Translations under genes and position numbers: made by a program | In this document: positions 1 to 55,993 of the stretch, one piece after another | How positions within the stretch are numbered: position 1 is the first letter of the stretch | How the letters are laid out: every line of letters starts with the position of its first letter | Assembly: GCA_963971425.1 (NCBI GenBank) | Contig: OZ020515.1 | Location: 22,130,637-22,194,636, forward strand | Reading direction: 5' to 3' | Length of the DNA: 64,000 nucleotides | Source: Bryoerythrophyllum caledonicum | Lineage: Eukaryota > Streptophyta > Bryopsida > Pottiales > Pottiaceae | The notes under the pieces: generated by a model | Seen by the model: only the letters and a program-made list of their open reading frames with translations | The model's database searches: none | Told to the model about the DNA's origin: nothing

Positions 1-39
1 GCACCGAACTACGTAGACGTATTTGGTGGAGCACCGAGG

Positions 40-760: not shown

Positions 761-1379
761 AGCTAGAAAGCCAAGTTCGCAGAGTTGGAGGCCAAAATGG
801 AAGCAAAGAATGCCAACACTCCTGTGGTAGGTGGCAACCCTTAGGTTACTCCCAGTTTCTATGCTCGGGCGGTTTTAGTTCCGTGGATGATGAATTTAGA
901 GACTTCATGTTGAGTGGCATGGAAAGGATATTCCATGCCATGGAAAGGATATTCGACAAGCAAGGTTGCCACAATCCTTCACGTTGAAAAAGATGGTGCT
1001 CACGTCGTCCGTGGTGCCTCCACCACAACTAGTGATGACATCTACACGAGCCTCACCACGAGCTGGAGGACTCATAGGAGGTTTTGGAGCACTTATGGAG
1101 GCAACAACTTCTATATGGGAAGCCTCTTTATTTTCTGCTGAGATGTTGTCACAAGATGGCTTTAGTGTGGCACAGGTTTTCAAGACTGTAGCCTCCATGT
1201 GTGAGTTGGGCAACTCCACGGGTATTAATGTATTGAAGACGGAGATAATTAATGCAGAGGAGAGCCAGAGTGACAACGTGGAGGGGCTACTTTCAGCAGC
1301 CATGGGTGTGAAGACAATGGCCACCAGACCTACGATTGAAAGATCATCCATTACCCCTGGTGTCGTAGTGGTTGATAAT

Positions 1380-1687
1380 TTTCAAAGCATTTTCCAACTT
1401 GTTGGGCATAAGGGGAAGGTTTTTGTACCTCGACGTGTGCTTTTGGATTCAGGAGCTCAACCTTTGATGCTGGGAGGGTCCGCTATTGGAGGGTTGGGTT
1501 TAACTGGGGATACCTTGGAGAAGTGTCCCTGGACAATTAGCACATCCGTGGGGGGTACAGAGCACGCTATAGGGATCAGACAGGCTGAGTTGGTGTTACA
1601 ACTCAATCAAAGTAATGTAGCAGATGTCTGTTCTATGAAGGTGAAGGCAATAGTCACGGAGGCCAAGTCATATGATATCTTGGTGGA
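1380..1687 (+). other. aspartic protease part of the DNMT-bearing Ty3 fossil (continues at 11938)
   Basis: A retropepsin-like segment with the catalytic-type motif LLDSGA near 1441-1458 and a following beta-rich stretch. This enzyme family cleaves the element's own polyprotein. Solo LTR B is inserted within this part. The sequence resumes immediately after the duplicated CTCGG, at about 11938-12080, with the reading LYPMGFTLDLW. Confidence 0.7.
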
Positions 1688-1692
1688 CTCGG
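1688..1692. repeat. Target site duplication of solo LTR B (CTCGG), left copy
   Basis: CTCGG directly precedes the TG end of B. The identical copy lies at 11933-11937 directly after its CA end. Confidence 0.85.
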
Positions 1693-1849
1693 TGTCGTAC
1701 CACAAATTTTCAATTTTTTTTAGTTAAGAGGTTAACTATGATAATCCCAGACTAACTAGTGCAGGTTTTAAGTTAATACTACTCTAGTATAGTTTATTAG
1801 ATAGGTTAGAGAAAGTGATTAATAGTAATTGTTAGGATACCCTAAAACC

Positions 1850-2130
1850 ACCAAGCCCGGACCCCTGGGACCCTCGCAGCCCTAGCCCGGAGCCCAAGCC
1901 CGGACTCCAAGCCGGCCAGCCAAGGCCGGGCCAGCCCAAGCCCGGGACCCCCGAGATCCGAGCCCGCCCAAGCCCGGACCCTCGGAGCCCAAGCCCGGAC
2001 TCCAAGCCGGCCAGCCAAGGCCGAGCCAGTCCAAGCCTGGACCCCTGGGACCCGAGCCCGGCCCAAGCCCGAACCCTCGGAGCCCAAGCCCGGAGCCCAA
2101 GCTGGATACAGCCAAGGCCCGAGCCAGCCC
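1850..2130 (+). repeat. GC-rich tandem repeat in LTR B (AAGCCCGGA type)
   Basis: Repeated AAGCCCGGACTCCAAGC and CCAGCCAAGGCC units, strongly G+C-rich, located just after the AT-rich start of B. Apparent proteins through it are low-complexity and not credible. Confidence 0.8.
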
Positions 2131-2324
2131 AAGCCCTGAAGATTAAGTTGGACAAAGAGACAAGCGCAAGTTAGAAAGCGAGGATCAAATTGTGCCGAGC
2201 TCGGAAAGATATCTAGGACGAAAGGAAGGAACATGGAATCTACAACTGCTCCCCGTTGGAATCTTCCCCTTAAGTCCGGGTCAACTACTTAACCAACTCC
2301 ACCTGACGTCTACATCACGAGGAT

Positions 2325-2475
2325 TAGAGAGCGAGGTGAGGACGAGCTGAGCCAGGAGCCGAGGTGAGGACGAGTTGAAGCCAGGAGTGAGGTAAAGACG
2401 AGTTGAAGCCAGGAGCGAGGTGAGGACGAGCTGAGGGAGGTGAGGACGAGCTGAGCTAGGAGCCGTGGTGAAGAC
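2325..2475 (+). repeat. Tandem repeat in LTR B (GAGGTGAGGACGAG type)
   Basis: Variants of GAGGTGAGGACGAGCTGA with CCAGGAGC spacers repeat about six times. It forms a second block of the repeat region that precedes the ORF of B. Confidence 0.75.
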
Positions 2476-2499
2476 GAGGTCGAGTCCCGAGGCGCTGTA

Positions 2500-3152
2500 A
2501 TTGTCAAGCCTGGAGGCACCTGCACTTACGAGCCCGGAGGCACCATTCATTACGATCCCGGAGGCACCTACACTTACCAGCCCGGAGACATCGTTGAGCC
2601 CGGAGGCATTGGCATCGTCGAGCCCGGAGGCACCTGCACTTACAAGCCCGAAGGCACCCCTGCTGCGAGCTTCAGCAAGGTAAGCCCGAAGGCACGTCCA
2701 CTTACAAGCCCGGAGGCACCATTCCTTACGAGCCCGGAGACATCGTCGAGCCCGGAGGCACCTGCACTTATGAGCCCGGAGGCACCATCACCCCCTGCTG
2801 CGAGCTTCAGTAAGGTAAGCCCGGAGGCACGTTCACTTACGAGCCCGGAGGCACGTTCACTTACAAGCTCGGAGGCATGTTCACTCACAGCCCAGAGGCA
2901 TTGTTCACTTACAAGCCCGGAGGCACCTACAGTTACAAGCCCGGAGGCACCTGCACTTACCAGCCCGGAGGCACCCCTACTGCGAGCTTCAGTAAAGTAA
3001 GCCCGGAGGCACGTTCACTTACAAGCCCAGAGGCACCATTCGTTACGAGTCCGGAAGCACGTTCGCTCACAGCCCGGAGGCACCATCACCCCCTGCTGCG
3101 AGCTCTAGCAAGGTAAGCCCGGAGGCACGTTCACTTACAAGCCCGGAGGCAT
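2500..3152 (+). repeat. Tandem repeat in LTR B (GCCCGGAGGCACC type), left of A
   Basis: Units of about 24-27 bp built on AGCCCGGAGGCAC followed by TTCACTTACA. The array is split by solo LTR A and continues at 8163-8480. Confidence 0.9.
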
Positions 3153-3364
3153 TGTCGTAGTACGTGTTGGCAAGTATTCACATCTTAACACAAAGATACC
3201 CTTAAGGTAATCGTTCCCACAGAGAATCACCGAGAACTACAACAACTAACAACCAAACCAAATGTACACAATGTTACCTATATCACAATAATTACATCAA
3301 AGGAAAGAAAGGAAAAGGTTAGAGTACAACGCCGGAGCGTTAACTACATCCACTACCCCGCTCT

Positions 3365-3580
3365 CCGTACGAGTACTTTCCCTGGGTAGGGACCTACTTC
3401 GTTCGGAAGGTAGGGACCTTCGAGTAGGGACCTACCTCGCTTGGAAGGTAGGGACCTTCGGGTAGGGACCTACCTCGCTCGGAAGGTAAGGACCTTTGGG
3501 TAGGGACCTACCTCGTTCGGAAGATAGGGACCTTCGGGTAGGGACCTATCTTGCTCGGAAGGTAGGGACCTTAGCCGGTT
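3365..3580 (+). repeat. Tandem repeat near the 3' end of LTR A (GGTAGGGACCTTCGG type)
   Basis: About five to six units of a roughly 38-bp repeat with GGTAGGGACCTACCTCG and GGAAGGTAGGGACCTTCGG. B has only a short related tract (GAGGTAGGACGTAC, about 11670-11700), so the array expanded in one copy. Confidence 0.85.
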
Positions 3581-4609
3581 AAGGGAGGGGGGATTATCTT
3601 TACAGCTATGCACACTATAGACATCCGGAGTACACGAGTACCCGGATAAAGATTATATCACCACGGACGGTAGTCCGTGGACTTACAGAGATTTTAATGT
3701 TTGACACAAGCAACAACTACTATTCCTCCCATTCTCTCCTTCTAACTCTACTCACTCACTTGGATGGTTATGGCGTCACTGAGATCCTCCGAAGGGGGTG
3801 TTAGACCCGTGTTTCCAAAACTACGAGTGGCGTGATGTAAGTGAGCAAGGGGCCTACCCGCCCACTATCCGTCCTCCTCCTAGTCTCCCTCCACATCCGA
3901 TGCGGCTGGAGGTAAGATGTTTTAGGGATCGACCCGAGCCCTCACAACCGACACCAATCTGACGCCAGAAGGTCATTCAAGACTCGCTAGGACCCTTACA
4001 CATCCGTCACTCCCCCCTCGTCCTTCCCTAGACACGTACAATCTCACCCAGGTGTTATTCCCATCCACCCAACTAATCTACTTGATGGAACAAGGAAACA
4101 ACTGTACTGTTAGAGTTGGAGTCACGCCCCTACTAGCTATCTTCTCACCTCACCTGTTATTCCCATCCACCGGGACTAATCTACTTCATGGAACAAGGAA
4201 ACAATGGTTAGACAATTAGTATAGACTAAAGGAGTGGACTACTTGAAATGGCACTCACAATCATGTATGGAATCCGAGCTCTCCAACCATCGAAGGTTTT
4301 CTGAGAGCGTAGATTTAGAATTTAACTGAAAGCAAATACACACATCAAGTAGTGAAGAGAGGTGCCACGAGACTCTTCTCTTATACTGCCAAGGAGTCAC
4401 ACAAGAGTCCAAATTCAAACGATACCTTCTAATTAAAGGTAGCGCATTAACTACTCTTGGCGGCGGTGGCTACCACTCCACACGACGTGCACCTTCAGAA
4501 GGTAACTTATTACACAAATTCCAAGGCAAAACCAAGTCAAATCCCAAAGTCATCGTGGGGCCTAGTCCACGAATGAACAATGACCTACCAACTAAGATTC
4601 TGACCCTAC

Positions 4610-6605
4610 TTCCGGGTCAACTCCTCAAGTCTTCTCTTCTCTTCCCTCCTCTTGCGCTTTTTTAAACTCTTGCTTGAAGTCGGGTGCGCCGCAGCCTTGC
4701 GAGTGTGACAAGTGGTGATAACAGATCCGCAGATGAAGAGGGTGCCGATCTGGCCATGGATGACCGCAATAATGCCTCCATCGAAGTCAAGGAGGCATCC
4801 GGACCACACGGAGTGAGTAGCATGAAAGTCGTACTTCGGTGGGGCTCGAATCGGGACGCGAGGGTCGGTGCGAGGCTAGGAGTCCCAATGAAGGCCTCCG
4901 GTACGGAAGTGTGTCCCAACTTGACCTCATGCCGTACTGGAAGGTGCAAGTAAGCCGAACTCTCACTCGTGGTCTTCCCAAAAGGAGCTATACCCTGCAA
5001 AGGAGTAACCGTCGGTGTTGCGCGAATGGGGTCTCCAAGGGAAAACTGACGAAGGAGAGTCGTGCGCAGAGGCTCCATCGTCGCATCCAAGCTATCTTTC
5101 CTTCCACTCTGTACCTGCATGGTGAGATCTGAAGGGGAAGGACAAGCGATAACTTCCACAGGGGGAATTCGAGAAGGAAGGACAGGACTATCGAGATCAA
5201 TCACTCCCTTCCCATTCGGGGTTCCTTGGTCACCCGAGTCTTGCTTCTCCGAATCCTCTTCAGAACCCGAGTCACCATGCTTATCCGAATCTTCTACAAA
5301 CTTGGGCAGGATATGGGTGAGGTTGCTTACCAACAACCTCATGTTAGCATATGCCTATTCGATCTTCACGGTTTGCTCCATCATGAAAGCAATTACCTTC
5401 TTGCTTGAAATGTGGCCATCCTTCTCTAACCTTGCATCAAACATCTTCGCTTTCATTACTACCTCCGTCGGGACGTGCAACGCCTCCTCCACTTGCTGCA
5501 ACGCCGAGGTCGATGCATTGGCTTGGAGAAGGGCCTCCTTGCAACTCCTCTCTGCCTCCAAGGCCCGGCTCTTCATCTTGGTCACATCCAAAGTGAGCTG
5601 GTTCACCTTCTGTTCCATAAGGCGGAGGTCACCGACTCCTCCCATCTTTTCCTTTGCCGCCGCGACTAAACCTTGGTAAGAGGTATTGCCGAGCAAGCTG
5701 CCCAACTGACCCAAGGTCTTGTCCACATCGTCCACATACACCCGAAGAGCCTCTACCAACTCGGAGGCACGGTAAGTCTTCCCTCCGAATTGAGCTAAGC
5801 CTATAGCGGCTGCTCGGGCAGCAGCTCGAGTTCGGGTGGAAGGTGCTCCTCCCTGTGTCGGTCTTTGGCGCTTAGGAGGGGGGAGTGCTTCTCCCTCCGA
5901 CTGCGATGAGCTACTCCCTCCTTCTGATTCAAGCTCGGACTCCGACTCCGTCCCTTCGAACTTCTTCATCATCAATTACGTGCCATACGCCATGGCCTCC
6001 TCCGGAGTGGTCTCTTTGAAGTGATGATAGAGGTGGATGAGGTAAGGGCAAATGGGCGAGCGCCTCGTGCTATTGACGCTCTTCGTCAACCTCATCACTA
6101 CCTCCTTCACGATAAGAGCTCAATTCACCACCCGCTCTCCCAGATAGGCACCATACAAGGTGTTTGCCATTGTGATCGTGACTCGGGTTGGTTTCTCCGG
6201 GTGCAAGATTGATACGAGGAATGCAAAAACCCTCTTCGCCCGAGGATCTTGGCAATCTTGCAATGCATAGCCATTCTTGGCATCCTTCGTACCAAAGAGC
6301 CCCTTGGCGTACTCCTCCTTCTTCAAACTCGTGAAGCCCGCCCCCTGTTGCGGGAAACCGTACACCTCCTGCCATCTTCCCATGGTCCAACGGTCCGCGC
6401 AGGCTCGGATGCTACTCCCCTCTAGCTCTGGAAGCGGGTCTTGCCGTAGTTCTTGCACAGTTGAATCCACACAGAAGCTCCAACAAAAGTCTAGGAGGGA
6501 GAGACAACCCATTCGAAGAAGATCCTCCCTTAGTTCGGTGAGCTCGAGTGGATCTCTGGGAATGGTGGGAGAGATGTCCTTCGTTAGAGAAGTCGGGATG
6601 GTCAT
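4610..6605 (-). other. Coiled-coil ORF inside solo LTR A (retroelement fossil)
   Basis: A long coding-like stretch within the LTR. It has a conserved N-terminal domain (motifs RWTMGRWQEVYGFPQQG, HPEKPTR, YGAYLGERVVN), then an acidic and serine-rich hinge, a coiled coil rich in Ala/Glu/Lys (ALEAERSCKEALLQA) and a proline/serine-rich tail ending in basic residues. The N-terminal domain resembles the plant transposon-protein domains of unknown function often found in Ty3 relatives, but I cannot name one. The same protein is encoded in B and C. Broken, with a handful of breaks. Confidence 0.65.
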
Positions 6606-6709
6606 GCTTCTTACTTGCTCGTTAAAACCTCGTCCCTCGGTCTTGATGATGCTCGTACTCGGGGTGCCCCTGCTCTGGCCCTTCCTCTTGTCCCCGCGGT
6701 CTTAGTTTA

Positions 6710-7450
6710 GCATGTGCAAACCTCCCGTAGCTTTCCCCTGCAGCTGGTAAGTGCGGACCTCCCTTAGCTCTCTCTGCAGCCGGTGTGGGAATGGTGGCTC
6801 CCTCGTGGAGGAGGTGTCTTGTCTTCTCCTGCAGCTCGGACCTACCTTGTCCCTGCAGCTCGGACCTACCTCGTCCCTACTACAGTCTCCCTAGATGCTG
6901 GTGGTGTGCGTGCTCAGGGTCGTTCCTTTGTGGGCTGCAGTCGTGTCCTCTTGATCACGTCGTCTTGTTGCTGTGGTCGTGTCCTGGTCACGTTGTCTTG
7001 TGGTCGTGGTCGTGTTCCTGGTCACGTCCCTATGGTCTCAACTTAATATGGGCAGACCTCCCCTACAGCTGATAGGCGCGGACCTCCCTCTGCAATTGGT
7101 GAGTGCGGTCCTCCCTTAGCTCTCTCTGCAGCCGGTGTGGGAATGGTGTCCCTCGTGGAGGTGGTGTCTTGTCTTCTCCTGCAGCTCTGACCTACCTCAT
7201 TTCTACAGCTCGGACCTATCTCATCCCTACTACAGCCTCCCTAGATGTTGGTGGTGTGCGTGCTCAGGGTCGTTTCCTTGTGGGCTGCAGTCGTGTCCTC
7301 TTGATCACGTCGTCTTGTTTGCTGTGGTCGTGTCTTGGTCATGTCCTCGTGTGTCTCCGTTTGCATGCCCGGGCCTCCCATAGCTCTCTCTGCGGCCGAT
7401 GTGGGAATGGTGGCTCCTTCGTGGAGGTAGCGTCTTGTCTTCTCCTGCAA
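6710..7450 (+). repeat. Long-unit tandem repeat in LTR A
   Basis: A unit of about 260-360 bp beginning around GCAGCCGGTGTGGGAATGG recurs near 6779, 7131 and 7392, each followed by TCTTGTCTTCTCCTGCA and GCTCGGACCTACC. It lies upstream of the ORF of A, in the place of the GCCCGGAGGCAC array of B. Confidence 0.8.
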
Positions 7451-7609
7451 CTCGGACCTACCTCGTCCCTTGGCTCGGACCTACCTTGTCTCTGCTCCAA
7501 CCTCCCCTGGTGCTTGAGGGTGCACGCTTCGGGTCGCTACCTTGTGGTGCTATAGTCGTGCTCCCGTGATCACGTCCTCTTGGGTCTCAGTTAGCCTGCC
7601 CAAGCCTCC

Positions 7610-7800
7610 GTAGCTCGTATGTGAGGACCTCCCTGGGCTTGCTCTCCTGCTCGTATGAGGTCTTCTCCAACTCGCCCTCCAGCTCGTATGTGGTCCTCTC
7701 CAGCTCGTATGTTGTCCTCTCCAGCTTGCTCTCCAGCTCGTATGAGGTCCTCTCCAACTCACCCTCCAGCTCGTATGCGGTCCTCCCTTTGCTCGCTCTC
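7610..7800 (+). repeat. Short tandem repeat in LTR A (CTCGTATG type)
   Basis: Repeats of AGCTCGTATG(A/T)GGTCCTCTCC with CTCCAGCTCG spacers, about eight units of 20-30 bp. Confidence 0.8.
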
Positions 7801-8162
7801 CAGCTTGGATACTCGGACCTACCCGTGGTTCGGGCTTTATACTAGGGCTTAGCTCGCAGCTTCTTAGTTGTAGCTTCCTTGTCGGTGCTGGTGGACCTTC
7901 CTTGTCGGTGCCGGTGGACCTTCCTTGGGTAAGGCCCCTCCAAGTTCTCGGTCTACCCGTTTGACAAGGGTGTGTTAGGATCCGGTGTTAAACCACTACT
8001 TATCCCGTTTAGCACCTATCTAATGTCTGTGCATCCTTCCTACTCTAATTCCCCCCAAAAAGCTAATCTAGGTGGATACTCACCTCTAAACTTTGTAAGG
8101 TGGTACGGTAATACCTTTCCTAAGTAACAAATTTTAAAAAATTAAAAATTCGTGGTACGACA

Positions 8163-8480
8163 GGCACCATTCCTTACGAGCCCGGAGACACCTGCACTTA
8201 CTAGCCTGGAGGCACCATTCCTTACGAGCCTGGAGGCACGTTCGCTCACAGCCCGGAGGCACCATCACCCCCTACTACGAGCTCCAGCAAGGTAAGCCGG
8301 AGGCACGATTCACTCACAGCCCGGAGGCACGTTCTCTTACAAGCCCCAAGGCACTCTTCCTCACAGCTCGGAGGCACCTTTCTTTACAGCCCAGAGGCAC
8401 CTTCACTCACAGCCCGGGGGCGCTGTTCACTCACAACCGGAGGCACTATAGTGGCCAAGCCCAGAGGCACCATCACCCCC
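8163..8480 (+). repeat. Tandem repeat in LTR B (GCCCGGAGGCACC type), right of A
   Basis: Continuation of the array at 2500-3152 on the far side of A. It shows that A landed inside the array. Confidence 0.9.
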
Positions 8481-8625
8481 TGCTGCGAGCGCTAGGGAGG
8501 TCCAGCTCAGAGCACGGGACTTGAGGAATACAAGAAGGCAAGTCGGTACTCCAAGGTAGTCGACGAGGGAGCAGCCGGTACCCACAAATTGAAGGAAGTG
8601 GAACGAGGAAAGTAAAGGGGGGGGT

Positions 8626-10596
8626 CATGGCCTCTTCCAACCTAGTAATGGCCTCGGTCAAAGCCATTTTCCCCGCCATCCCCAAGGAATCCTTTGAGCT
8701 TACTGAGCTCAAGGAGGATCTCCTCCGCATGGGATGCCTCTCCCTCCTCAAATGTTGTTGGAGTTTTTGCATTGAGTCCACTGTATAGGAGATAAGGCAG
8801 GATTCGTTGCCGGACTCTGAGGGAGATAGTATCCGAGCTTACCCAAGTCGGTGGACAATGGGAAAGTGGCAAGAGGTGTACAAATTTCCTCGGCAGGGTG
8901 CAGGATGGACGAGTTTGAAGGAGGAGCATGCCAAGGGACGATTCAGCACCAAGGATTCCAACAATGGTTACGGTCTGAAGGACTGCATAGACTCTCGAGC
9001 CCGACGGGTCTTTGCATTCCTCGTACTAATTCTACACCCTGAAAAACCTACACGGGTCATCGTGACTCTTGCCAATACCGTGTATGGATCTTATCTAGGG
9101 GAGAGGATGGTGAATTGGGCCATCATTGTGAGGACGTGGTTCTCCGATTGACAAAGAGTGTTACCAACGCCAAGCGATCTCCTCTTTGTCCCTTCTTGAT
9201 CCACCTCTATCATCACTTCAAGGAAACGACGCCGGAGAAGACTACGGCGTACGGGACTCATTTGATGATGAAAAAGTTCCAGGGGATAGAATCGGAGTTT
9301 GAGTCACGCTCTAAAGGAAGAAGCACTTCCTCCCCATCAGAAGAAGAGGCACCTCCACCCCCCAAGCGTCAGAGAAGGAGAGATGGAAGAATCCCTTCCA
9401 CTCGAACCCGAGTCGCTTTCCGCGCAGCAGTTACGGGACCCGCACACCTCGGAGACAAGACATACCGGAAATCTGAGCTAATTGAGGCCCTTCGTGTGTA
9501 CGTAGAAGACACAGACAAGACATTGGCACATGTGAGCAGCTTGGTGGGCAACCCACCAATCGAAGGACTCGTCACTACGATCAAGGAACGTATAGGAGGA
9601 GCGAGTGACCTCCGTAGTATGGAACAGAAGGTCCACCGGCTCACCCTTGAGATGACCAAGATGAAGAGTCGAGCCTTGGAGGCAGAGAAGAGGCAGAAGG
9701 AGGCTCTTCTCCAAGCCAATGCCTCTGCGGAGGCATTACAGCGAGTGGAGGATACTTTGCACCTACCTGCAGAGGTTGTACTCAAGGCCCGAATGTTGGA
9801 CGCTAAGTTGGAGAGAGATGACCACATTTCGAGTAAGAGGGTGATTGCATTCATGATGGAGCAAACCGTAAAGGTTGAGGAGGCTTATGCCAGCATGAGA
9901 CTACTGGTAAGCAACCTCACACACATCTTACCCAAGTTCGTGGATGACTCCGACAGCTCATGCAAGGACGGAGATTCGGACTCCGACACGGAAGATCGCG
10001 GCACGGGCAACAACAAGGGGAAGACCGTGGTGGACCTTGACAGTCCCACCCCTCTCGTACGACCTGCAAGTGTTCCTATAAGACCATCTCCTTCAGAAAT
10101 CACCACCCAGACATAGAGTGGTTGGAAGGAGAGCTCCGATCAAGGGGTGGAACCTCCACCTTTGATTCGTCATCGCCAGCCACCCCGTAGCGATACCATT
10201 CGTGCTGCGCCAGTTATGGTCCCATTATCGAGTGTCTTTCCCCTAGAAAAGACTACCAGTGAGAGTTCTTCTCGCTGGCAACTCCCGGTCCTTACCTCCA
10301 GCCCGGATATCATTACGACGACTCCGAACCAGGTACCAATTCCCCCAGCTAGGTCAGAGTTTCATCCGGTTCCGGTCTCTCTGCCAGTTACCTCCACCGG
10401 AGCGGGCACTACTTTCTCTGCAAGAGAAATTGTGTCCCGTCCGTTTGCCACTCCGACTCAGTCCGCGGATGCCACTTTGGCACCCTTGATGACACTTGCT
10501 ACGGCCGCACCGACCCCTTCTTCAAGCCGAAGCTCCAAGAAGCGTAGAAGGAAGGAGGAGAAGAAGAGACTCGAGGAGTTGGCGCAGGGTAGGTAG
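8626..10596 (+). other. Coiled-coil ORF inside solo LTR B (retroelement fossil)
   Basis: Counterpart of the ORF in A. N-terminal motifs include RWTMGKWQEVYKFP, HPEKPTRVI and YGSYLGERMVNW. A serine/acid-rich hinge follows, then a heptad-rich region (ALEAEKRQKEALLQA) and a Ser/Pro/Thr-rich tail ending in KKRRRKEEKKRLEEL. Three copies keep the same domain order although they differ widely in sequence, which suggests the product was once under selection. Broken, with a handful of breaks. Confidence 0.65.
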
Positions 10597-10828
10597 AAAC
10601 TTACGTCTGTAGGGTAAGGATCTTGGTTCATAGGTCACTGTTCATTCCGCGATTAGGCCCCCGGTTGACCTTGGGTTTTGACTTAGTTTTGCCTTGGGAT
10701 TTGTGTAATAAGATACCTTCCGACGGTGCACGTCGTGTGGAGAGGCAACCACCGCCGCCAAGAGTAGTTAATGCGCCGCCTTTAGTTAAAAGGTATCGTT
10801 TGAGTTTGGACTCTTGTGTGAGTCTTTA

Positions 10829-10845
10829 GCAGTATAAGAGAGGAG
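10829..10845 (+). promoter_or_regulatory. TATA box of LTR B
   Basis: GCAGTATAAGAGAGGAG occurs about 230 bp after the ORF of B. A matching minus-strand TATA lies at about 4378-4390 in A. Conservation between copies fits the start of LTR transcription, placing the ORF upstream, in what would be U3. Confidence 0.5.
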
Positions 10846-11932
10846 TCTCGGGGCAGCTCTCTTCATTGCTAGATGTGTGTATTTGCTTTCAGTTTAAGTC
10901 TAAACCTACGCTCTCAGAAAACCTTCGATGGTTGGAGAGCTCGGATTCCATACATGATTGTGAGTGCCATTTCAAGTAGTCCACTCCTCAAATTCGTACT
11001 AACTATCAACTCATTGTTTCCTTATTCCATCAAGTAGAGTTAGTCCGGGTGGATGGGAATAACAGGTGAGGTGGGGAGATAGTTAGTAGAGGTGTGACTC
11101 TAACTCTAAACACTTACAATTGTTTCCTTGTTCCATCAAGTAGATTAATACGTGTGGGTGGAAATAACAGGTGAGGTTGCAAGTGTCTAGGGAAAGACAA
11201 GGGGGAGTGACAAATGTGTAAGGGTCCTAGCGAGTCTTGAGTGACCTTCCGGCAACCGATTGGTGTCGGTTGTGAGGGCTCGGGTCGATCCCTGAAACAT
11301 CCTACCTCCAGCCACATCGGATGTGGATGGAGACTGAGAGGAGGGCGGATAGTGGGCGGGTAGGCCCCTTGCTCACTTACATTACGCCACTCACAGTTTC
11401 GGAAACACGGGTCTAGCAGTCCTTCGGGGGGATCTCAGTGACGCCATAACCATCCAAGTGAGTGAGTAGAGTTAGAAGGAGAGAATGGAAGGAAGAGTCT
11501 CTGTTACTTGTGTCAAATACTAAAATCTCTGTGAGTCCTCGGATCACTGTCCGTGGTGATAAAACCCCTGTCGGGTACGCATGTACTCTAGATGTCCATA
11601 TTGTGCATAGGTGTAACTATAAGCCCCAGATAATCTAAAGTTTGAGTAATAAAAGTCTTTCATACCCGTGCGAGGTAGGACGTACGAGGTAGGACGTACG
11701 AGGAGACAACACGCGTACGAAGAGCGGGGTAATTGGTGTTATTAACACCTAGGCTTTGTGATCTGAACCTTTATTCCCTCCTTTCTTTTGATGTATCTAT
11801 TGTATATTTGACATTTTATAGATTTTGGCTTGTGGTTAGTCGTTGTAGTTCTCGGTGACTCTCTGTGGGAACGATTACCTTAAGGGTATCTTTGTGTTAA
11901 GATGTAAATACTTGCCAACACGTACTACGACA

Positions 11933-11937
11933 CTCGG
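11933..11937. repeat. Target site duplication of solo LTR B (CTCGG), right copy
   Basis: Right copy of the 5-bp duplication. The protease part of the Ty3 fossil resumes here. Confidence 0.85.
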
Positions 11938-12394
11938 CAGTGCTATACCCAATGGGATTTACCTTGGATTTATGGGAGGAGTCAGCAAGCTATAGACCAG
12001 GATGGCAAACAGGAGAAGGATGAAAGGCTTAGCTGCCAGCTTAATTTGTTCGAGTTCTCACTGGTAACTTTGCTGACGTGTTTGCCTTCTCTAGAGGTAT
12101 GATTATGAAACGTTCATGGTTTCAGGCAGGTTTTGAGAATCCTTCTATGGTTGACCACACTTTAGAAAAAATGGATGTCTATATGGGCAACATAAGTGGT
12201 GGAGAGGAAGAAGGATTTCATCCTAGGATTGAGGCGGCGTGGAGCAACATCATCCAGTTGAGGGAGGCCGTGGAGTTAGCAATGGAAGAAGCATGGCAAC
12301 ATTCTATGCTACCACAGATGCAACAGGAGCCTGGAGTTGACCAAGATCTAGGGCCTCCATTAGACACTGCTACCATCCATTGGAAGGCACCAAC

Positions 12395-13290
12395 GGATGG
12401 CATCGTGTTGTTGGAGCTCTTTGAAGGCATTGGCACAGGATTAGCAGCCGTTTTACAAGCAGGGATCAAAGTTAAGCGCTATATTTACGCGGATGTGGAT
12501 GAAGCAGCAAGGCATGTGGCCGAACGTCACTCACGTAGATTGAGGACGCAATTCCCCGACTTATTGGCCACTAGTGCCATCAAAACTTCTTTCTCTACAC
12601 TTGTAGGCGATATTTCCTTGCTGTCAGATGATGACATTTACCGTGTGGGTCATGTGGACCTTGTCATTGTAGGATGGCCTTGCCAAGGCATGTCTGTGGC
12701 AGGCAATCAGAATAAGTTAAAGGACTACCGTTGTTCCAAGTTCTTTGATATAATTCGAGTACTTCCGTTGCTTCAAACTTCTCAGAGGCAACCGCCTGGT
12801 TATATTGTAGATAACGTGCCCGTGGTGAGCAGTTCGAGGTCCAAAACGCACGCGAGTATGCACAGAATTCATCAAACACTTGGTTTGCCGGTGTTAATTG
12901 ATGCGCCTGCAGTAGGGTCCAGAGCACATAGACCACGCTTGTGGTGGACATACCTGGCACGAGCAGAGTTGCTATAGTCTGCGGTGGGTCGCATTAAACG
13001 CCCCAGATGTGTATGTGAGTGATATTCTAGACCCTCACAAGACACCACGGCGCGTGTATTACGATGACTAGGCACCATTAGCGGTGGTTAACCGCAAAAG
13101 GGAACCACGTAGAGCCTTGCCCATGTTGGTTAGCTTTGCACGGTCTTATGCTTTCAAGGATAATGGACCTAGTCTTGTGTGGGATTCCTTGTCCCAGGAG
13201 ATGGTGGAGCCTAATGCAAATAAGCAGGAGAGAGCCATGGGCTTTTCCACTAGCACCACCGATGTACCTAGGATTTCAAAAGCCTAGGGA
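12395..13290 (+). other. C5-cytosine DNA methyltransferase part of the Ty3 fossil
   Basis: This part shows hallmark motifs of the C5-cytosine methyltransferase family. Motif I, the S-adenosylmethionine site, reads LELFEGIGTGLAAVLQAG at about 12411-12465. The catalytic PCQ loop reads GWPCQGMSVAG at about 12672-12700. A motif VIII-like stretch RAHRPRLWW lies near 12920-12950, and ERAMGF, a motif IX-region signature, lies at about 13228-13245. Spacing and wording (GI.TGL..L...GI, and an RCSKFF.I.RVL-like stretch after the PCQ loop) look nearer to DNMT3 than to MET1/DNMT1, but only a phylogeny can settle that. It sits between protease and reverse transcriptase on the same strand, so it belongs to the element rather than to a host gene. 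It is part of a broken element and not expected to be active. Confidence 0.85.
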
Positions 13291-13309
13291 CAATTTTTAC
13301 TTGGTCGGG

Positions 13310-13750
13310 CAATGGATTTAAATTGCCTGACTTGGATTGTGTCGTTAGCGGTTGCTGAACAGAAGCGTTTAGCTTCTAGTTTGACGAGTTACGTGGGTTA
13401 TTATGAGTTGCGGGCGGCAGGAAAACCACTTGCCTCTATCAGGGTGACAAGCAAAGTGGTTGGGGGTGAGAGGGCCCTTGCACCTCATCCATGGAATATG
13501 TGGGATACCCCAAATATTTTTGAGACCACCAAAGCAATAAATCATTGCTATGGAAGGGAGAACTGGAGTGAAGGAATCAGATTGGTTCACCAGAGAATAG
13601 ATTTGGAAGATATTGTAGAGAAGATCTTCTTGGAAGAACACACAACTCTTGACATGGAAGAAATTGACAAACTTGGTCAGTTTGAAGGACTTGGGAATAT
13701 TATTGGAGAGGAAGGAGAGGAGTCTCCTTTATAGGGGATTCAAAAGCAGC
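13310..13750 (+). other. linker between methyltransferase and reverse transcriptase of the Ty3 fossil
   Basis: Plus-strand coding-like sequence joining the DNMT part to the reverse transcriptase, rich in acidic residues toward its end. I recognise no domain in it. It may be the end of the methyltransferase region plus a tether. Confidence 0.45.
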
Positions 13751-13859
13751 TAAGGGTGGAAAATCCTACTTCAAAGGAACCGAAGGAGGTGGTGACTAAG
13801 GACACTTGGAAACCAAGAGTAGGCCTAACGGATGGAGCAGTGGAGGTGGAGGAACATGA

Positions 13860-14660
13860 GTTCCTGAAGGAGTATTTAGATTTTTTTGCTTTCAGTTTAC
13901 ATGATTTGGGAGTGTTGAAGGGGCAAGAAGTGCATATTAACTTAACCAACGAAGCACCAATTTACCGAAAGCCATACAAGTATAGCGAGATGGAGCGAAA
14001 GATGATTCGTGTTCGCACAAAAGAATTGATGGCTGCAAGGTTGGTGGAGTTGGCTCCACCAGATTGTGAGTATGCATCAGCAACGGTTATGCCATCCAAG
14101 AAGGACATTTATGGTAATTGGACTGAGAAAAGGATGTGTGGTGACTATAGGAGAATTAATAAATTCACTAAGTCAGACCGTTATGCCATGCCAACTCTGG
14201 AGGAGAACTTTGAGGCCATTGACTATGCCACAATATTTAGTACGTTGGATTTATACTCTGGATACCACCATATTGGATTGAGAGATGAAGACAAGGAGAA
14301 AACCACGTCCAAGGGCATTGACAGAGATGGGAAGGACTAGTTGTTTCAATGGAAGTTTTTACCGTTTGAATTGAAAAATGCTCCAGCAGAATTTCAAAGG
14401 GTTATGGACAGAGTATTCTAGGGGTTGGATTTCTTGAGATGCTATATTGATGACATTATTGTCTTTAGTAGGAATCGAAAGCAACATAGACTACACTTGA
14501 TGGAGGTTTTTGCTAGATTGAAGCTCCATGGATTAAAGTTGCACCCTGATAAGTGCAAATTCTACTTTAATCGCATTGAGTATTTAGGCCACATTATTTA
14601 TCCAAGTGGATTAGGTATGGTAGCTAGCAAAGTGGAAGTAGTGATGTCTATTCTTAGACC
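13860..14660 (+). other. reverse transcriptase part of the Ty3 fossil
   Basis: Ty3-type reverse transcriptase motifs are readable in order: the fingers segment with KRMCGDYRRIN, the FSTLDLYSGYHHI active-site motif, the FLPFELKNAP motif and the YIDDII catalytic motif near 14440. Copies element RNA into DNA in the living family. Broken, as in the rest of the element. Confidence 0.9.
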
Positions 14661-14799
14661 ACGAGATGTTAGTAGGTTGAGAGCATTCTTGAAGTTGTGT
14701 AACTATTATAGAAAGTTTGTTAAAACTTTCAGTGCTATTGTCAAGCCATTAACCACGTTGATAAGGAATGATCAACCTTAATCTTGGGAGATGAACAAG

Positions 14800-15200
14800 A
14801 GGCGGCCTTGCAACAATTGAAAGACCGTTTGGCATCAGCACCAATACTTCGGAGGCCTATAGTAGGAAGGACGTACCAGCTACACACAGATTGGAGCTCG
14901 TTGGGGATTGATGCAGTATTGACGCAAATGGATGATGATAGCAAGGAATTTGTGATTGCATATGCCAGCCGGTTCAACAACAACGCTGAGGCTCAGTATA
15001 GCTCGTATGAAGGGGAATGTTTGGCTGCCATATCGGCAATTGCTCATTTTTGGTGTTATCTTTATGGTAATGAGTTTCTGTTAGTTACTGATCATCAGCC
15101 CTTGAAATGGTTGATGGAGTCTGATAAATTGATAGGAAAACTAGCACAGTGGGCCTTGATATTGATGGAGTATGACTTCTAGGTGGTTCATAGGGCAGGT
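14800..15200 (+). other. RNase H part of the Ty3 fossil
   Basis: RNase H motifs typical of Ty3 elements: a TDWSSLGIDAVL-like first strand, YSSYEGECLAAI with the acidic catalytic position, and VTDHQPLKWLM. It follows the reverse transcriptase directly. Element C is inserted a little downstream. Confidence 0.85.
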
Positions 15201-15399
15201 TTGGTAAATATGGATGTTGATGGCCTTAGCCGCAATCCAATTCCAAACCAAGAGGATGATACAGGTGCTAGGTGGCATACTCAGGGTGAAACCAACCCAT
15301 TGTCAGGTTGGCATTATTCGTTCTTTCTGGGGATATTGGCATTGAATAGAGACACCATCGGGGAAGCTACTGTGGCCACAGTAGATGAGGATGGAGGTG

Positions 15400-16641
15400 A
15401 AGAGTCTGGCCTTCCAGTTGGGTTCCGGGGTCTGGCCATTGCTTGTAACCCTCTCCCCCTTCCGTAAGTGGGTGCGATATGATACACGGGCACTATGTCC
15501 GGTTCTTCCTCCTCGAATTTTGCAGTAGCATAGAATATAGTCCCCTCTTCGTCCACAAACTGAACTCGTTTAGGGGGGAGAAAGGGACACTCGTTCGGGT
15601 AATGATCGGGTTGTCCACAGCGGGTGCACCAGACGTTGTTCCGGACCATCGGAACGCTCGTCTCGGCTTGTGACAATCCACCAACTGCACTTTGATGGCG
15701 GCCAGGCTGGTCTGGATGTCCTTGATCATTCGCCGGTCGCTAGGCGTTTCTTCCTTGACTTTTATCGCGACTCGATCTCGTTCCTTCCGATGTTCCTTGG
15801 AACTAGAGGATCTCCGGGGAGGACTGAGTTCCTCAGAGTCCTCGTCTTCACTAGACTGGCTCTCCGTGGGGCTAGAACTACTAGATCCGGATTTGGAACT
15901 TGAGCTTCTTATGTTCTTCCGGATCTGCTTGCCCCGCTTGGAACTAACGGATGTTGATCTGGAGCAAGATTGACAGAGGGACTGCTTGGAATTTTCATAG
16001 TTTTGTGGAGCCTCCATTGCTTCTTGCAAGGACTGAGGTCGAGCTTGACGGATGTGGAATCCCATCTTCTCCGGAAATCCTACCACATACCACTCGATTT
16101 GCACACTTTGTGCAATGTCCGGGGTTAGTTTGGGAATAAGACTCCGGACTCTCTAGCCATACCTCCGGACGGATTTATTCGTCTCCATCTTCATCTTGCT
16201 GAGCTTGCCCAGCGTCCATGCTTCTCCACCAACCTCCCGGAAGGTACGGAGAAAGGCTGCCGTAAGCAAGGTCCAATCGGCTCGGGTAGTTTCCGGAACG
16301 TTCTGATACCATTGCAAAGCTTCGCCTTTCAGAAGTCCTTGGAACAATCGGAGTTTGGTGGCGTTCTCCTCCTGGTTTGCTGTGGCGGTGGCGTTGAACT
16401 TACATAGCCAGTCATCTACGTCGTCCCGTCCGTCTCCTTTAAACTTCCGGTACTTCAGGCGAAAGGTAGGTTGTGGCAGCGCCATCCCAATAGCAACGGT
16501 CACCGCGGGTTCTTCGGTCTCCGATCCTGTTCTACTCAGTGATCTTGGTGGAGTAAGAGATCTGCTTCTGGACCGACCAGCAGTGGTTCTCTTCCGGGCC
16601 GATCTGCGAACGCCTTCACTCCGATGCGCACTTTGATTCAT
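15400..16641 (-). other. Ty3 gag part of element C
   Basis: Starts about 100 bp after the primer-binding site. It has a basic N-terminus (RRSARKRTTAGRSRSRS) and a retrotransposon gag domain with FKGDGRDDVDDWLCKF and LLKGEALQWYQN. A Ser/Glu/Lys-rich linker follows, then a CX2CX4HX4C zinc knuckle (CTRCGQPDHYPNEC). Broken, with a few breaks. Confidence 0.8.
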
Positions 16642-16740
16642 ACAGTTTTGTCTTTACAGATCGTCTAAACGGAATAGATATATTCCATATTACTATCACT
16701 AGTGTTAGTGTTCTAAGGATACTGGGAAAAAGGAAATAGG

Positions 16741-16762
16741 TCCCCGGCAGCGGCGCCAAAAT
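16741..16762 (-). other. Primer-binding site of element C
   Basis: Minus strand reads TTTTGGCGCCGCTGCCGGGG, nearly the same as the primer-binding region typical of plant Tat/Ogre-type and related Ty3 elements (TTTGGCGCCGTTGCCGGGGA). Confidence 0.8.
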
Positions 16763-19700: not shown

Positions 19701-20642
19701 AGTTGGGCGTCCAGGTGCTTAAGGTCCTACAGGTTGTAGCCGTCCTTCGGGTCCGCTGGTCCGGCAAACTCGTCCGTCAGGAACTCGTCCCGCCGTTCAA
19801 CTACCTTGGTGCGGCCGCCCCGGAAGTCATATGCTTGGGACCACTCCGGGACTCCCCAATTTTCCGGATGGGCCCTCAACAACCCCTTGTACTTCTCGTC
19901 CAGGTTGCCTATGAGTTCCCGAACGTAGACCTCCTCCCGCATGCCCCATGGGACTTTGAGCAAACCCTCGCAGCCCATCGTCTTCAACCTCGACTTCAGC
20001 AGATTAAACTCCTCCAGGTCTTCTGGAATGTCCGGGAGGACGCGGGCCAAGGGAGGGATCGCAACAGCCGGTTCTTCGTCTCTCCGGCCGCGCCCGTCTC
20101 TGTCCGTTCTCTTCTTGTTGGCCATCGGCACAGACTTCATGGAATCAGACTATCACCTCACTATCTCTCGAGGTTGTCCCTGCACGCACCGTCCTCACAA
20201 AAGCTCTCCCTAACGGACGCACGTCCGTTCTAACCGTCTAAGCTTCAAACCCTAACGGCTGGTGGTTAGAAAACTGTAAGAGAAAATAAGGGAGAGAAAA
20301 AGAGAAAGCCCTAATGCAAAACTCCGTACGCGAGGACGAAATGAGGAAGAAAGAGTTTTCCCCCCGAACCCCATCCTTAAGTAGTCCGGCCGTTAGTACG
20401 GAGTCATGATGACAGTTGATGGCAACGGTTCCGGCTGACAGTTCCGGTTAATTAACTACCCCGAAATTTCGGTAACTGCTCCAGCTCCGATTCTAACAGC
20501 TTTTGGCTTAATTAGGGTTTGCAGTCTCGTCCATCTGCCTTTATTCTAACCTGAAGACTATAGGTTGTATCCTAGCGTGGACTATCATAACTGTTTAACT
20601 AATTTTTTTATTTTAGTTGGATTTTAAGGTTAACTTCCGGCA
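16763..20642 (-). repeat. 5' LTR of element C
   Basis: About 3.9 kb. It contains an ORF, then a U5-like 3' end followed directly by the primer-binding site. This adjacency is the key evidence that the ORF-bearing unit is an LTR. It lacks the GCCCGGAGGCAC arrays of A and B. Confidence 0.65.
18077..20140 (-). other. Coiled-coil ORF inside the LTR of element C (retroelement fossil)
   Basis: Homologue of the ORFs in A and B: an N-terminal domain with WSQAYDFRGG, DPKDGYNL and HPEKPKR, an acidic serine-rich hinge, a coiled coil (EMERKMKQYLAEAAL) and a long proline/threonine-rich tail. The tail is much richer in proline than in A or B. It has a few breaks. Confidence 0.65.
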
Positions 20643-21250
20643 TCATGTGGGAACGGAGTCCCACAGTCGCTTTGGAGCTCCAGCAGAGGTACTCACAGAC
20701 CAAGGGAGAGAATTCTTGGGTGAGTTTCAAACGTTGTGTGAGCAAGCGATGATTGATCATCGCACTACTTCGAGGGATCATCCCGAAGCAGATGGATTGG
20801 CGGAGCGCATGGTGCAAACCATCAAGAAGGGGCTCTGGAAGTACAGCTTGAAGAAATGACACCATCAGGATTGGGATTTGCAACTACCCTGGATAGCAAT
20901 GGGCTATCGGTTCAGCAAACAAGCGTCCTTAGCGTTTTTTTCACCTTACTATCTATTGTTTGGAAGGCACTCGGTTTTATCGAAGGCCATTCAAGCAGAT
21001 GTTGATACCGTGTTGGCTAACATGGACAATCCAAATACGTGGGCTCAAATGTGTGAGCAACGTGCAGACTTGTTCAGAAGGGTGATGCCTATGGCATTGG
21101 AGAACCTCTCCATTGCTCAACATCGGGATACGTTGCGCTATGCTACAATACGGGGAGGTGGTTATCGACCGCACGTGCGGCGTTTCACGCTTGGAGACTA
21201 TGTGTACATGCAGCAAGTAGCGCCCACCACCTTGGATGTGACAGCAGGAA
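20640..21250 (+). other. integrase part of the Ty3 fossil
   Basis: Integrase core motifs are readable: VLTDQGREFLGEF, then HRTTSRDHPEADGLAERM, the characteristic D...D,35E region of Ty3 integrases, followed by a C-terminal stretch RFTLGDYVY resembling the GPY/F-type module. It resumes on the far side of element C. Integrase inserts the DNA copy into the genome. Confidence 0.85.
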
Positions 21251-21416
21251 GGGGTTCTTGAGAGTTCGTGAGGTGAAGGACTCAGGGGTGTTAGTGTTGG
21301 AGGGTCGTGATAGCAAGATGTGGAAGGATCATATACGCAATTGTGCGCCTTGCCACTTGCCACACATTGATGGGACAGTACACCCTGGTCTCTCTCACAT
21401 CTCTGCTCAATTACGT

Positions 21417-21551
21417 TGTCGGTTGTGTGGTAGTGCCAAACGGGCAGCCACTATGGTTATTTGTGACTTATGTTCTACGGGGTGGCATTTTGAATGCTTA
21501 ACTTTACCTCTTTTGGAGGTACTAGTAGGTCAATGGTCTTGTCGTGAGTGT
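21417..21551 (+). other. PHD-type zinc finger at the integrase C-terminus of the Ty3 fossil
   Basis: The spacing is CX2C-X11-CX2C-X4-HX2C-X14-CX2C, with the tryptophan two residues before the final cysteine pair (QWSCREC), as expected for a PHD finger (C4HC3). PHD fingers usually read histone H3 tails. In chromoviruses a chromodomain at this place steers integration, so a PHD finger here could do the same job. That role is inference. Confidence 0.8.
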
Positions 21552-21748
21552 TTAGCACGTTGAGGGTCTGAGAAGACAAAGTCCAGTATTAAAAATGTGT
21601 TAGAAGCGATTAACAATGGGGCTTTATTTACACCCAGCCTACCCTTTGTTTGTTGAGTCTTTTAGCGTCTTTTCATGTGGACCACATTGATTCTATGGTT
21701 TGAGAGGTTTTTATTTACGGTAATTTGAGAGTTGAGACCTGCCTAGAA

Positions 21749-24520
21749 CTATTGTCCATCTACAGCGTATCTTGGCTTGATAGCCATCCATTCTACTATG
21801 GCCTCATTGATGAGAAAACTCTCCAAGTTCCAAAACTTGTGCGTGTACATTTGTATACACAAAGCCATGTGGTCTGTTAGTTTATTTCGGACTTTGCTCT
21901 TTACAAAGCCAAATATTGAAAATGTTCGCTCATCTTCGACGCAGCCTAGAACGAGTATAGTTGCAATCTCAACAAGTTTGAAGTATTCGGGAAAGCCTGC
22001 TAGCAAGATGCTATTTGGCCTAAGCTGCTGTGATGTTCTCGTCAAAGGATTGATGGTGATGGGCCGAGCCATGGCAGTGGACCAATTTGCCTTCATTGCC
22101 AAGCGAAACATTGCGCTTTGAGCATCAAGGGCGTGGGCAGATAGGAGCCCTGCCACACTTACATCACTTCGGTCCGGCCATCCCGTAATGCTCTTGGCCT
22201 CGCATAAATGTTGCTTCAGCACTGCAAGGTGCTTGAAAAAAAACTCATCAGCATGCTCATCCCTCCAAAACTGCGGAAACACTACTCCCAGAGCATCCAT
22301 GATAGGCTGCGAAGGGAATAAAAAATGCACCTCTATAGCAATGGAGCGGGCAACACCTACAAGGGACAACAACGAGTGAAGTCAGATTGAATTCAGTGCG
22401 AAAAGACGAGTGAGAACAATGCAGCTCTGAAATTATCAAAAACATGGAATGCTAATGGTTTAGAATACTGACTTACCCGTGACTGCGTCCTTTGTCGGAG
22501 CAATGGCAACGGCCCATACATGTCGAGTAACCATAGTTTTGGCACGAGTCACAAAATCAGTTTTGTAAAGCCAGACGTTGTTTGAGACCTCTGAGCTTGT
22601 AAAGGCAAGGTGCTCTAGGTCGGCATGGTTTAGGTCACCGACTCACTTCAGACGGATGGCTGGAGAGCATGTCTCCTTAAGCCCGTGCAACAAATCAAAA
22701 TGGTCTGATTTGAAGGCCGATTTAGGATCCAGGAACATGGTGCCAATTTGCAACCGGCACTCCCTAAGGGCGGCTACAAAATCACACACATATACATCCC
22801 TGGCTTGCACGAACTCCATCATGCAGTCAATGACCTCCATGAGCAGAATCAAGCATGCAAGCCCAAGCAGGGTCTCAATGTCCGTGAGAGAGGCCAACAA
22901 ATTTTTAGAGATAGTGTCCTTCGAATCATCTAACTCCATCTTCATAACCAAGGTGCGGTACTCACTAAGTACACGCTGAGAGAGTAGAAGCAAGCTCAAC
23001 CACCGGGTTTTGATATGCTTCAAGATCTTTCTTCCCTTTGTTTCCATAATGTCAGCTAGTTTCGTGAACTCCAAATGCCTCTTAGATGACTTCAAGAAAT
23101 ACTCGTAGACTTTCTGTATGAGGACTTCAGTCCGGGCTACAAGATAAGTACCAGACATGGCCTAGACAACCAAGTTTGTCCGATGAACTATGCAATGAAC
23201 ACCTATAAGGTGCGGGGCATACTTGTCTTGAATTTGAACTGTAACACCGTTTCTACAACCTTAAAACACATTGTGTCCGTCAGCGCCAAATAAGACCAGC
23301 CTCTCCATGGCTTGCTCCTCTGTAAGACCACCAGGCCCTAAAAGGGCTACCATAACGACCTTGGTAATATGGTCGCTTCCAGCCTTGCCAATGGCAACAA
23401 CTCTCTCCAATGCCAATTGTAAGGGCACTCTCACATTGTCCACAACTACATACGCATGAATAGAGATCTAGGAAGCATTATCAAGAGAAGTAACCTCATT
23501 GGCTGACATTGCAATGAAACGAGCAAAAAGTAAGAAGGACTTCACTTTCATGCGGAAGACATGATGCATTGCCTCTGCCAGGCCCCACGCCGATGACAAG
23601 CACCAGTGCTTCTTGGAACAAGAAACATTCAGAAAATTGAAGAGCTGCAGAGCAACAGGGTAGTCCTTCAACGGTCGGCCGTTACTAAAGAGCCAGAAAA
23701 TCAGAGTAAATTGCTCTAGTTTTTTGTGCCCGGCTGTTGGATTGTCCTTCTAGAGGATGTCAAGAATAGTGTCACGCCCCAAGGCTGCAAACAGCCTCTC
23801 ATTCTTGAAGTGTTTGTTATGGCGGTCACGGTACCACTCTCCTTTCATCACTCCCTCCTTCGACATACTTCTGGTTGCACATTTCTAGCCAGCATGTTTG
23901 TTGAGATTGTCATTCTTCATAAAAATGGTTGTAACCCGCTTTTCAATCCTTGTACAGATTATACACTTCACCATTTGCGCAACTCCAGCATCATTGTAGA
24001 CAGGCTCGGCCCAAGGAAAGGAGGCAGCCCAAGAGGGTTGGAACTTTCGAACATAGCCTCTGGAGCCCCCTTGGGAGGAGCTCTCACCCATAACCTCTGA
24101 ATCAGACAACAACAAAACCAAATCAGAAAACAAGGGACCACAAGCAACCTTCTTTCCAACCTCGGCATGCGGGGGCATTGGCTTTAATTCTGAGAGGTGG
24201 ACCACCTTGCAGGGCTTGAAGGCAGTGCTTCCGTCACTCCCTTCCTGTCTCAAATCTCCCGAAACACCCTCAGACGAAACAACCCAAGCAAGGCGCACGA
24301 GGCTATCAGACACATCGCACAAACTAGGCAACGACTCTTTTGTGCGAGATTGACACGACCTTAATGAAGCAAGCACCCCCCTCCCAGATTCAAAAATCTT
24401 TGCACGATACAACGTGGGGAGCATACCCTGCACATGTTTCTTCCCTCGAAACCTTACTTGAGAAGCCATCGCTCCCACCTCGGCAAGCAGTGGAGACACC
24501 GAATTACTTCTAAACACCAC
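21749..24520 (-). pseudogene. hAT-superfamily DNA transposase relic
   Basis: On the minus strand an N-terminal segment with a C2..H zinc-finger-like motif (KCIICTRIEKR...KHAG) is followed by the DUF4371/hAT core: VLFGADGHNVF, a VHRTNLVV stretch and KHIKTRWLS. The C-terminal hAT dimerisation region reads CVEDERTFSIFGFVKSKVRNKL. It looks closest to the KIAA1586/ZNF862-like hAT group. One intron is well supported at 22357-22476 (GTAAGT...TTGTAG), and removing it keeps the frame. Several stops (for example near 23462 and 23750) and frame changes elsewhere show it is dead. I found no convincing terminal inverted repeats or 8-bp duplication, so the outer limits are those of the coding relic. Confidence 0.75.
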
Positions 24521-55930: not shown

Positions 55931-55993
55931 GACACACATCCGAGTCACAGAGGAAGCAGATTGACCTGGGTTTTAGAGGAGATGAGGAATCGG

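Follow-up and report, generated by a model that had tools for sequence, protein, structure and literature searches.

The window, the whole 64-kb stretch of DNA analysed here, opens within the gag end of a Ty3/Gypsy retrotransposon on the forward strand. Its Pol region can be followed across a later insert to RNase H, with a C5-cytosine methyltransferase (DNMT) domain lying ahead of the reverse transcriptase (RT); past a second interruption stand an integrase and a PHD finger that probably belong to the same element. Separate, probable host genes lie further along on the reverse strand.

The Ty3/Gypsy element from gag to RNase H

The first part of the element comprises the following features.

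1–680 (+), gag end running off the start of the window, with a capsid-like stretch (frame 1) and a zinc knuckle
623–664 (+), CX2CX4HX4C zinc knuckle, by eye, in a frame that differs from that of the capsid-like stretch
1370–1692 (+), retropepsin-like protease region, LLDSGA ... SYDILVDS, motif by eye, truncated at 1692 by the insert
1693–11932, later insert of 10,240 bp with TG..CA ends, foreign to the Ty3 element
11938–12398 (+), protease-to-DNMT linker, in the frame of the protease region and of DNMT motif I; stops at 12021, 12030 and 12042
12399–12974 (+), N half of the DNMT3-type C5-cytosine methyltransferase, motifs I–VIII
about 12420–12440 (+), motif I, FEGIGTG
12672–12689 (+), motif IV, GWPCQG, with the catalytic Cys in PCQ
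within 12399–12974 (+), motif VI, DNV, and motif VIII, AHRPRLWW, from alignments
12997–13350 (+), C half of the DNMT, motifs IX–X region, ERAMGFSTSTTDV...LLGRAMDL, in another frame; stops at 13069 and 13285
13351–13734 (+), DNMT-to-RT linker, in the frame of the DNMT C half and of RT; stop at 13732
13735–14778 (+), Ty3-type reverse transcriptase, YIDDIIV; stops at 14338 and 14419
14772–15316 (+), RNase H and tail, in a frame that differs from that of RT, RT_RNaseH 1.7e-30; stop at 15180

The gag end matches Retrotrans_gag at E 0.025 (15.2 bits, under the Pfam cut-off of 24.1). There is no Pfam match for the protease-like region; we take the LLDSGA motif to mark 1370–1692 as a retropepsin-like protease, a putative assignment based on this motif, on position and on frame contiguity with the sequence from 11938 onward. 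The two RT pieces match RVT_1 at 1e-4 (under the cut-off) and 3.1e-13, and the top PDB match of the second is the Ty3 RT (PDB code 4ol8, 5.2e-16). The order RT–RNase H–integrase is that of Ty3/Gypsy elements, with an interruption ahead of the integrase.

The insert is flanked by a 5-bp target duplication, CTCGG (1688–1692 and 11933–11937), and of the 160 × 100 cut pairs tested, no other combines TG..CA ends with a duplication of 5 bp. When it is left out, the protease-like region, the linker and the DNMT N half all fall in one frame; the short flanks joined across it read SYDILVDSAVLYPMGFTLDLWEESASYRPGWQTGEG, followed by the DNMT frame past the stops at 12021, 12030 and 12042. On the other side, the DNMT C half, the linker and RT share one frame, interrupted by TAG stops at 13069, 13285, 13732, 14338 and 14419. 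As judged from these reading frames, the DNMT lies in the Pol of a Ty3/Gypsy LTR retrotransposon and the region from protease-like sequence to RT is contiguous. A preliminary description of this DNA had set the enzyme between the protease and the RT of one Ty3 element, on the same strand; that order stands, but the protease is no immediate neighbour, given the 10-kb insert that intervenes.

Within the insert, 3153–6569 and 8672–11932 are inverted copies (aligned pieces 71–84% alike) of a family whose long ORF, a charged coiled coil, has no Pfam match above cut-off.

This copy of the element is dead and cannot make the enzyme. Its seven coding pieces hold 13 stops (8 TAG, 3 TAA and 2 TGA), of which those beside frameshifts (592, 12975 and 14779) may not be true in-frame stops, and the frame changes inside the DNMT, at the passage from RT to RNase H and again downstream of the integrase core, in addition to the two interruptions. 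Any function would thus belong to relatives of this copy. TAG accounts for 8 of the 13 in-frame stops against 83 of 259 off-frame (Fisher p 0.036; 7/12 and p 0.11 with other bounds). A genetic code that reads TAG as Gln was considered, and decay is likelier, as there are also TAA and TGA stops and frameshifts.

The methyltransferase domain and its origin

The ORF at 12045–12974 (+) carries motif I and the PCQ loop. It matches DNA_methylase (PF00145, E 4.8e-10, 39.8 bits, above the cut-off of 22) and, in NCBIfam, dcm (TIGR00675) at E 2.8e-10 with 40.3 bits, under the latter's cut-off of 100.65. The best PDB match of the N half is DNMT3A (E 2e-9), and ranks 1–29 of the 56 PDB sequences at E ≤1 are all DNMT3A, 3C or 3B. 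Lower in the ranking are HhaI (from 4.3e-4), DRM (from 6e-4), HaeIII and DNMT2, the last far weaker at E 0.014–0.015; no DNMT1 chain is among the 56 sequences found with the N half. None of 500 shuffled N halves reaches the real score against DNMT3A, and a chance match is ruled out by the Pfam, PDB and shuffle results together. An AlphaFold (AF2) model of 12345–12974 has a mean pLDDT of 62.9 and a pTM of 0.63, from an input alignment of 30 rows in which all 29 besides the window row are viral. Foldseek with this model gives DNMT3A as the top PDB match (1.9e-12, query TM 0.63), and DNMT3-family structures make up 50 of the 50 matches listed, of 290 at E ≤0.001.

The frame shifts near 12975–12997, inside the domain. 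Alignment of 12997–13485 (stops as X) with the last motifs of DNMT3A sets ERAMGFSTSTTDV...LLGRA against ERVFGFPVHYTDV...LLGRS, with z 5.8 and 0 of 500 shuffles reaching the score, and on repetition z 6.5 and 0 of 5,000. The other 12 of the 13 compared sequences give z from −0.6 to 0.9, two of these 12 being DRM stretches without the motif IX–X region; phmmer with the C half finds no match in the PDB. Since the C half aligns to the last motifs of DNMT3A, the domain reaches about 13350. The motif order is linear (I–VIII, then IX–X) rather than rearranged, so the domain is not a DRM. By its motifs and matches, the segment encodes a DNMT3-type cytosine methyltransferase, which stands nearer to DNMT3/DRM enzymes than to Dcm, DNMT1 or DNMT2.

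The Glu of ENV (motif VI) has a catalytic role in C5-methyltransferases. ENV is found in 7 of 7 phage rows and in DNMT3A, and motif VI here is DNV. This may be the state of the family or a product of decay; an ancestral DNV may have left the enzyme with little or no activity.

Enzymes of this type are common in viral contigs, at least 482 of 600 pattern-matched viral-contig stretches encoding DNMT relatives. With tblastn at E ≤0.01 the DNMT has matches in 560 of 50,697 phage records, the first row at 31% identity and 4e-14, and in 102 of 72,556 plasmid records. The viral comparison set consists of the best 80 of at least 482 loci from IMG/VR.

A 14-row tree was built with the window row, DNMT3A, DRM, seven phage rows and three Dcm-type rows, and no DNMT1 or DNMT2 row. 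It sets the window row on the side of DNMT3A, DRM and the phage DNMT3-like enzymes with 100/100 support against the three Dcm-type rows, which rules out a Dcm-type origin. Grouping of the window row with DNMT3A and DRM has 52/60, the end branch of the window row is 1.9, and p-AU is 0.22 for the window row with DNMT3A alone and 0.19 with the seven phage rows. A 93-row tree, which took in 79 of the 80 viral rows (the best 80 of at least 482; one of <140 aa was dropped), gives an end branch of 6.88 and p-AU of 0.88 and 0.82 for the DNMT3A and phage placements. Its bootstrap had not settled, and both trees in which rows were held together outscored the free one, so the free search was poor. The trees, from a comparison set without plant or algal DNMT3, appear compatible with either placement.

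The motif I and PCQ loop reported earlier for a C5-cytosine methyltransferase on this strand are in place (PF00145 4.8e-10, DNMT3A 2e-9), and the DNMT3-like look that they were given is borne out by the PDB ranking, by Foldseek and by the 100/100 split from the three Dcm rows. The domain does lie in the reported segment, 12395–13290, but it does not end at 13290; it runs to about 13350, with its C half in another frame. A phylogeny of the domain, as suggested at that time, likewise sets it apart from the Dcm rows (100/100) and is compatible with a place beside DNMT3A or beside the phage rows.

These data bear on whether the element acquired its methyltransferase from a prokaryotic or viral DNMT3-like enzyme instead of a host DNMT3 or DRM, which we regard as rather doubtful though the foremost alternative. 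PCQ occurs in 78 of the 80 viral loci (best 80 of at least 482), against PCN in DNMT3A and both DRMs; the loop is shared with phage DNMT3-like enzymes and would speak against a host DNMT3 or DRM having simply been captured. The N half also fits the viral enzymes (best 80 of at least 482) with a median z of 31.9, above the 23.6 for DNMT3A. The C half reverses this preference: DNMT3A at z 6.5 stands above any of 75 viral ORFs (≥260 aa, from the best 80 of at least 482; median z 0.02, best 4.6). The p-AU values are similar for both placements, and PCQ may be ordinary in plant or algal DNMT3. Pieces of gag, protease, RT, RNase H, integrase and PHD finger have matches near 0 of the 80 viral loci (best 80 of at least 482) at E 0.01. 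Scans of viral contigs (IMG/VR) and prokaryote assemblies found no relatives of the element; these collections would hold one by accident only, and nearly all the scans used exact short peptide patterns of one protein, with which only close relatives are detectable.

Integrase, PHD finger and surroundings

RNase H is followed by the second interruption and the remaining parts of an integrase.

15317 to about 20600, second interruption, ends unsure, with reverse-strand gag and LTR-like material (by eye); the N-terminal part of the integrase is missing
20632–21258 (+), integrase core, TDQG and DGLAER, 34 residues from Asp to Glu; stop at 20857
21255–21416 (+), C-terminal region of the integrase, by eye, in a frame that differs from that of the core
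21417–21560 (+), PHD finger at the C terminus; TGA stop at 21561

Retrotrans_gag is matched on the reverse strand in 15317–16760 (1.4e-6), where a zinc knuckle is also seen by eye, the whole forming an oppositely oriented LTR element; TTGGCGCC at 16740–16760 is, by eye, a primer-binding-like site in that element. No TG..CA ends with a target duplication were found for the second interruption. The integrase core matches rve at 9.1e-5 (23.1 bits, under the cut-off of 32.6) and PDB integrases from 1.3e-4; the second Asp and the Glu of a DDE integrase are present and the first part is missing. The PHD finger passes its cut-off (PF00628, E 6.1e-9, 36.2 bits, cut-off 24) and matches PHF12 (1.5e-9), DPF3 (1.9e-8) and KDM5B (2e-8) in the PDB, with 79 sequences at E ≤0.1. 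The Pfam matches of the two pieces that cover the integrase C terminus include no chromodomain. An AF2 model of 21255–21560 is poor (pLDDT 44.5).

Integrase and PHD finger probably belong to the DNMT element: they lie on the same strand, in the expected order, and no piece of the element has a second copy within the 64-kb window at E 0.01. It is unlikely that they are instead part of another Ty3 element, brought alongside through nesting, a reading that draws on the 5.3-kb interruption with its reverse-strand gag after RNase H, on the missing N-terminal part of the integrase and on an interruption for which no TG..CA ends with a target duplication were found.

Elsewhere in the window, a P4-ATPase flippase is encoded at 30790–36616 (−) in separate open stretches, as expected of the exons of a eukaryotic host gene (PhoLip_ATPase_N 9.8e-25, PhoLip_ATPase_C 2.9e-40 and 2.3e-25, E1-E2_ATPase 5.5e-7). 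DUF179/AlgH-like (4.8e-26) and DUF427 (3.6e-5) matches at 56451–57911 (−) probably mark further host genes. ORFs at 21752–24604 (−) resemble a hAT/BED-type transposase by eye, with a Pfam match in 0 of 3 tested pieces. A 301-bp direct repeat (25371–25671 and 42803–43101) is 89% identical over 17.4 kb of separation, and 54724–55941 holds a tandem array with copies 225–250 bp apart and aligned pieces 77–95% alike. Neither a tRNA nor an Rfam match at gathering scores was found in the window. CAG and CTG are depleted window-wide (Markov O/E 0.69 and 0.66), most clearly in 40–50 kb (0.48 and 0.47) as against the gene-bearing 30–40 kb (0.83 and 0.88), and CCG/CGG is not (1.1). The depletion would agree with methylated CHG sites having been lost in a plant-like host; taken with the flippase exons and the DUF179 gene, it makes a streptophyte host plausible.

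Proposed reading and known systems

We favour, with some reserve, a decayed and nested Ty3/Gypsy element whose Pol reads protease–DNMT3-type methyltransferase–RT–RNase H and probably then integrase–PHD, and whose intact relatives would mark and target themselves. In such a relative, the protease would cut the polyprotein and free the methyltransferase, which may act de novo, in a CG or non-CG context, on the cDNA of the element or on the DNA at a new insertion. By binding the tails of histone H3, the PHD finger on the integrase might direct integration in the manner of chromovirus chromodomains. A new copy would then arrive pre-marked as silent chromatin, where it would do little harm to the host and would not be treated as foreign.

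It is improbable that the enzyme modifies RNA (the genomic RNA or the tRNA primer) instead of DNA. RNA methylation was raised by the authors who described retrotransposon DNMTs, for a LINE version, in the available text of their report (PMC5890265); against it stand the DNMT3-type motifs and fold found here and the far lower score of DNMT2, which acts on tRNA. The least credible account is the chance arrival of a methyltransferase gene or retrocopy in an old Ty3 element, with no fusion and no family trait. A single decayed locus fits it, as does the fact that no piece recurs in the window at E 0.01, but such an arrival would rarely keep the protease-like region, linker and DNMT N half in one frame and likewise the DNMT C half, linker and RT in one frame.

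We advance more tentatively, as a possibility, that the favoured reading extends to a streptophyte lineage of Ty3 elements with a writer (a phage-like PCQ DNMT3-type enzyme, perhaps not host-derived) and a reader (the integrase PHD finger) in one polyprotein, found beyond Klebsormidium and possibly in land plants. If so, the element would choose its chromatin and then mark its own DNA. Transposons are the normal targets of DNA methylation, and an element with a de novo methyltransferase of its own reverses the roles; together with a probable histone reader, it bears on the question whether being silenced can be of use to the parasite. A second Gypsy case, with a PHD finger, would mean either spread or renewed origin of the trait, and offers an architecture to seek in streptophyte genomes.

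The preliminary description had pointed to DNMTs in retrotransposons of Klebsormidium and dinoflagellates, and both are indeed documented in the available text of de Mendoza et al. 2018 (PMC5890265). There a Gypsy element of Klebsormidium nitens is described as carrying a Dnmt3 in its Pol ORF (Ka/Ks < 0.2), and methylation of retrotranscribed cDNA is proposed. In the yeast test given in the same text, DIRS enzymes methylated CG de novo; the Klebsormidium Gypsy enzyme gave none, a result called inconclusive there (PMC5890265). The available text of a 2025 paper (PMC12344493) notes some DNMT3s in streptophyte and dinoflagellate retrotransposons, named as LTR Copia and DIRS. According to the available text of another paper (PMC6338049), land plants such as tracheophytes lack transposons of this kind, and a function directed against DNA viruses is proposed there. 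In open-licence literature, the 2018 report (PMC5890265) was the sole one found for DNMT-encoding Gypsy retrotransposons.

KnitGypsy-Dnmt3 from K. nitens is, by the available text, likewise an LTR Gypsy element; the DNMT3-type domain in its Pol ORF is intronless and not rearranged, and its host is a streptophyte, as is probable here. 'PHD' occurs 0 times in the main text as available and a legend calls the domain composition typical of Gypsy (PMC5890265), whereas the present element probably ends in a PHD finger; the legend of Fig. 4, in the portion available, gives a DIRS-like repeat arrangement (PMC5890265). The window copy differs from it in being dead and in having DNV as motif VI, the two being likened by published description. 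SymbioDIRS-Dnmt3 from dinoflagellates, which its authors consider a separate capture, likewise joins a DNMT3-type domain and RT in one Pol ORF according to the available text (PMC5890265), but is a DIRS element with a tyrosine recombinase, unlike the Ty3 element seen here with its probable DDE integrase. Chromoviruses, in the available text of two papers (PMC6317226, PMC12786077), carry a histone-reader-like module, the chromodomain, at the integrase C terminus, where a PHD finger stands here; the available text of the chromovirus paper PMC6317226 contains neither 'methyltransferase' nor 'PHD' as a whole word.

Phage DNMT3-like enzymes (for example, of Roseobacter phage CRP-603; 31% identity, E 4e-14) share DNMT3-type motifs and PCQ with the present enzyme, but are phage genes and not domains of a retroelement Pol. 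A PHD finger in CR1-like non-LTR retrotransposons was reportedly described by Kapitonov and Jurka in 2003; these elements resemble the present one in having a PHD finger in a retrotransposon protein, but are non-LTR. Within the open-licence literature, as far as its text was available, no description of a PHD-bearing Ty3 element was found. A methyltransferase in a Gypsy Pol has a precedent and is still rare; the new points at this locus are the PHD finger and the demonstration of contiguity.
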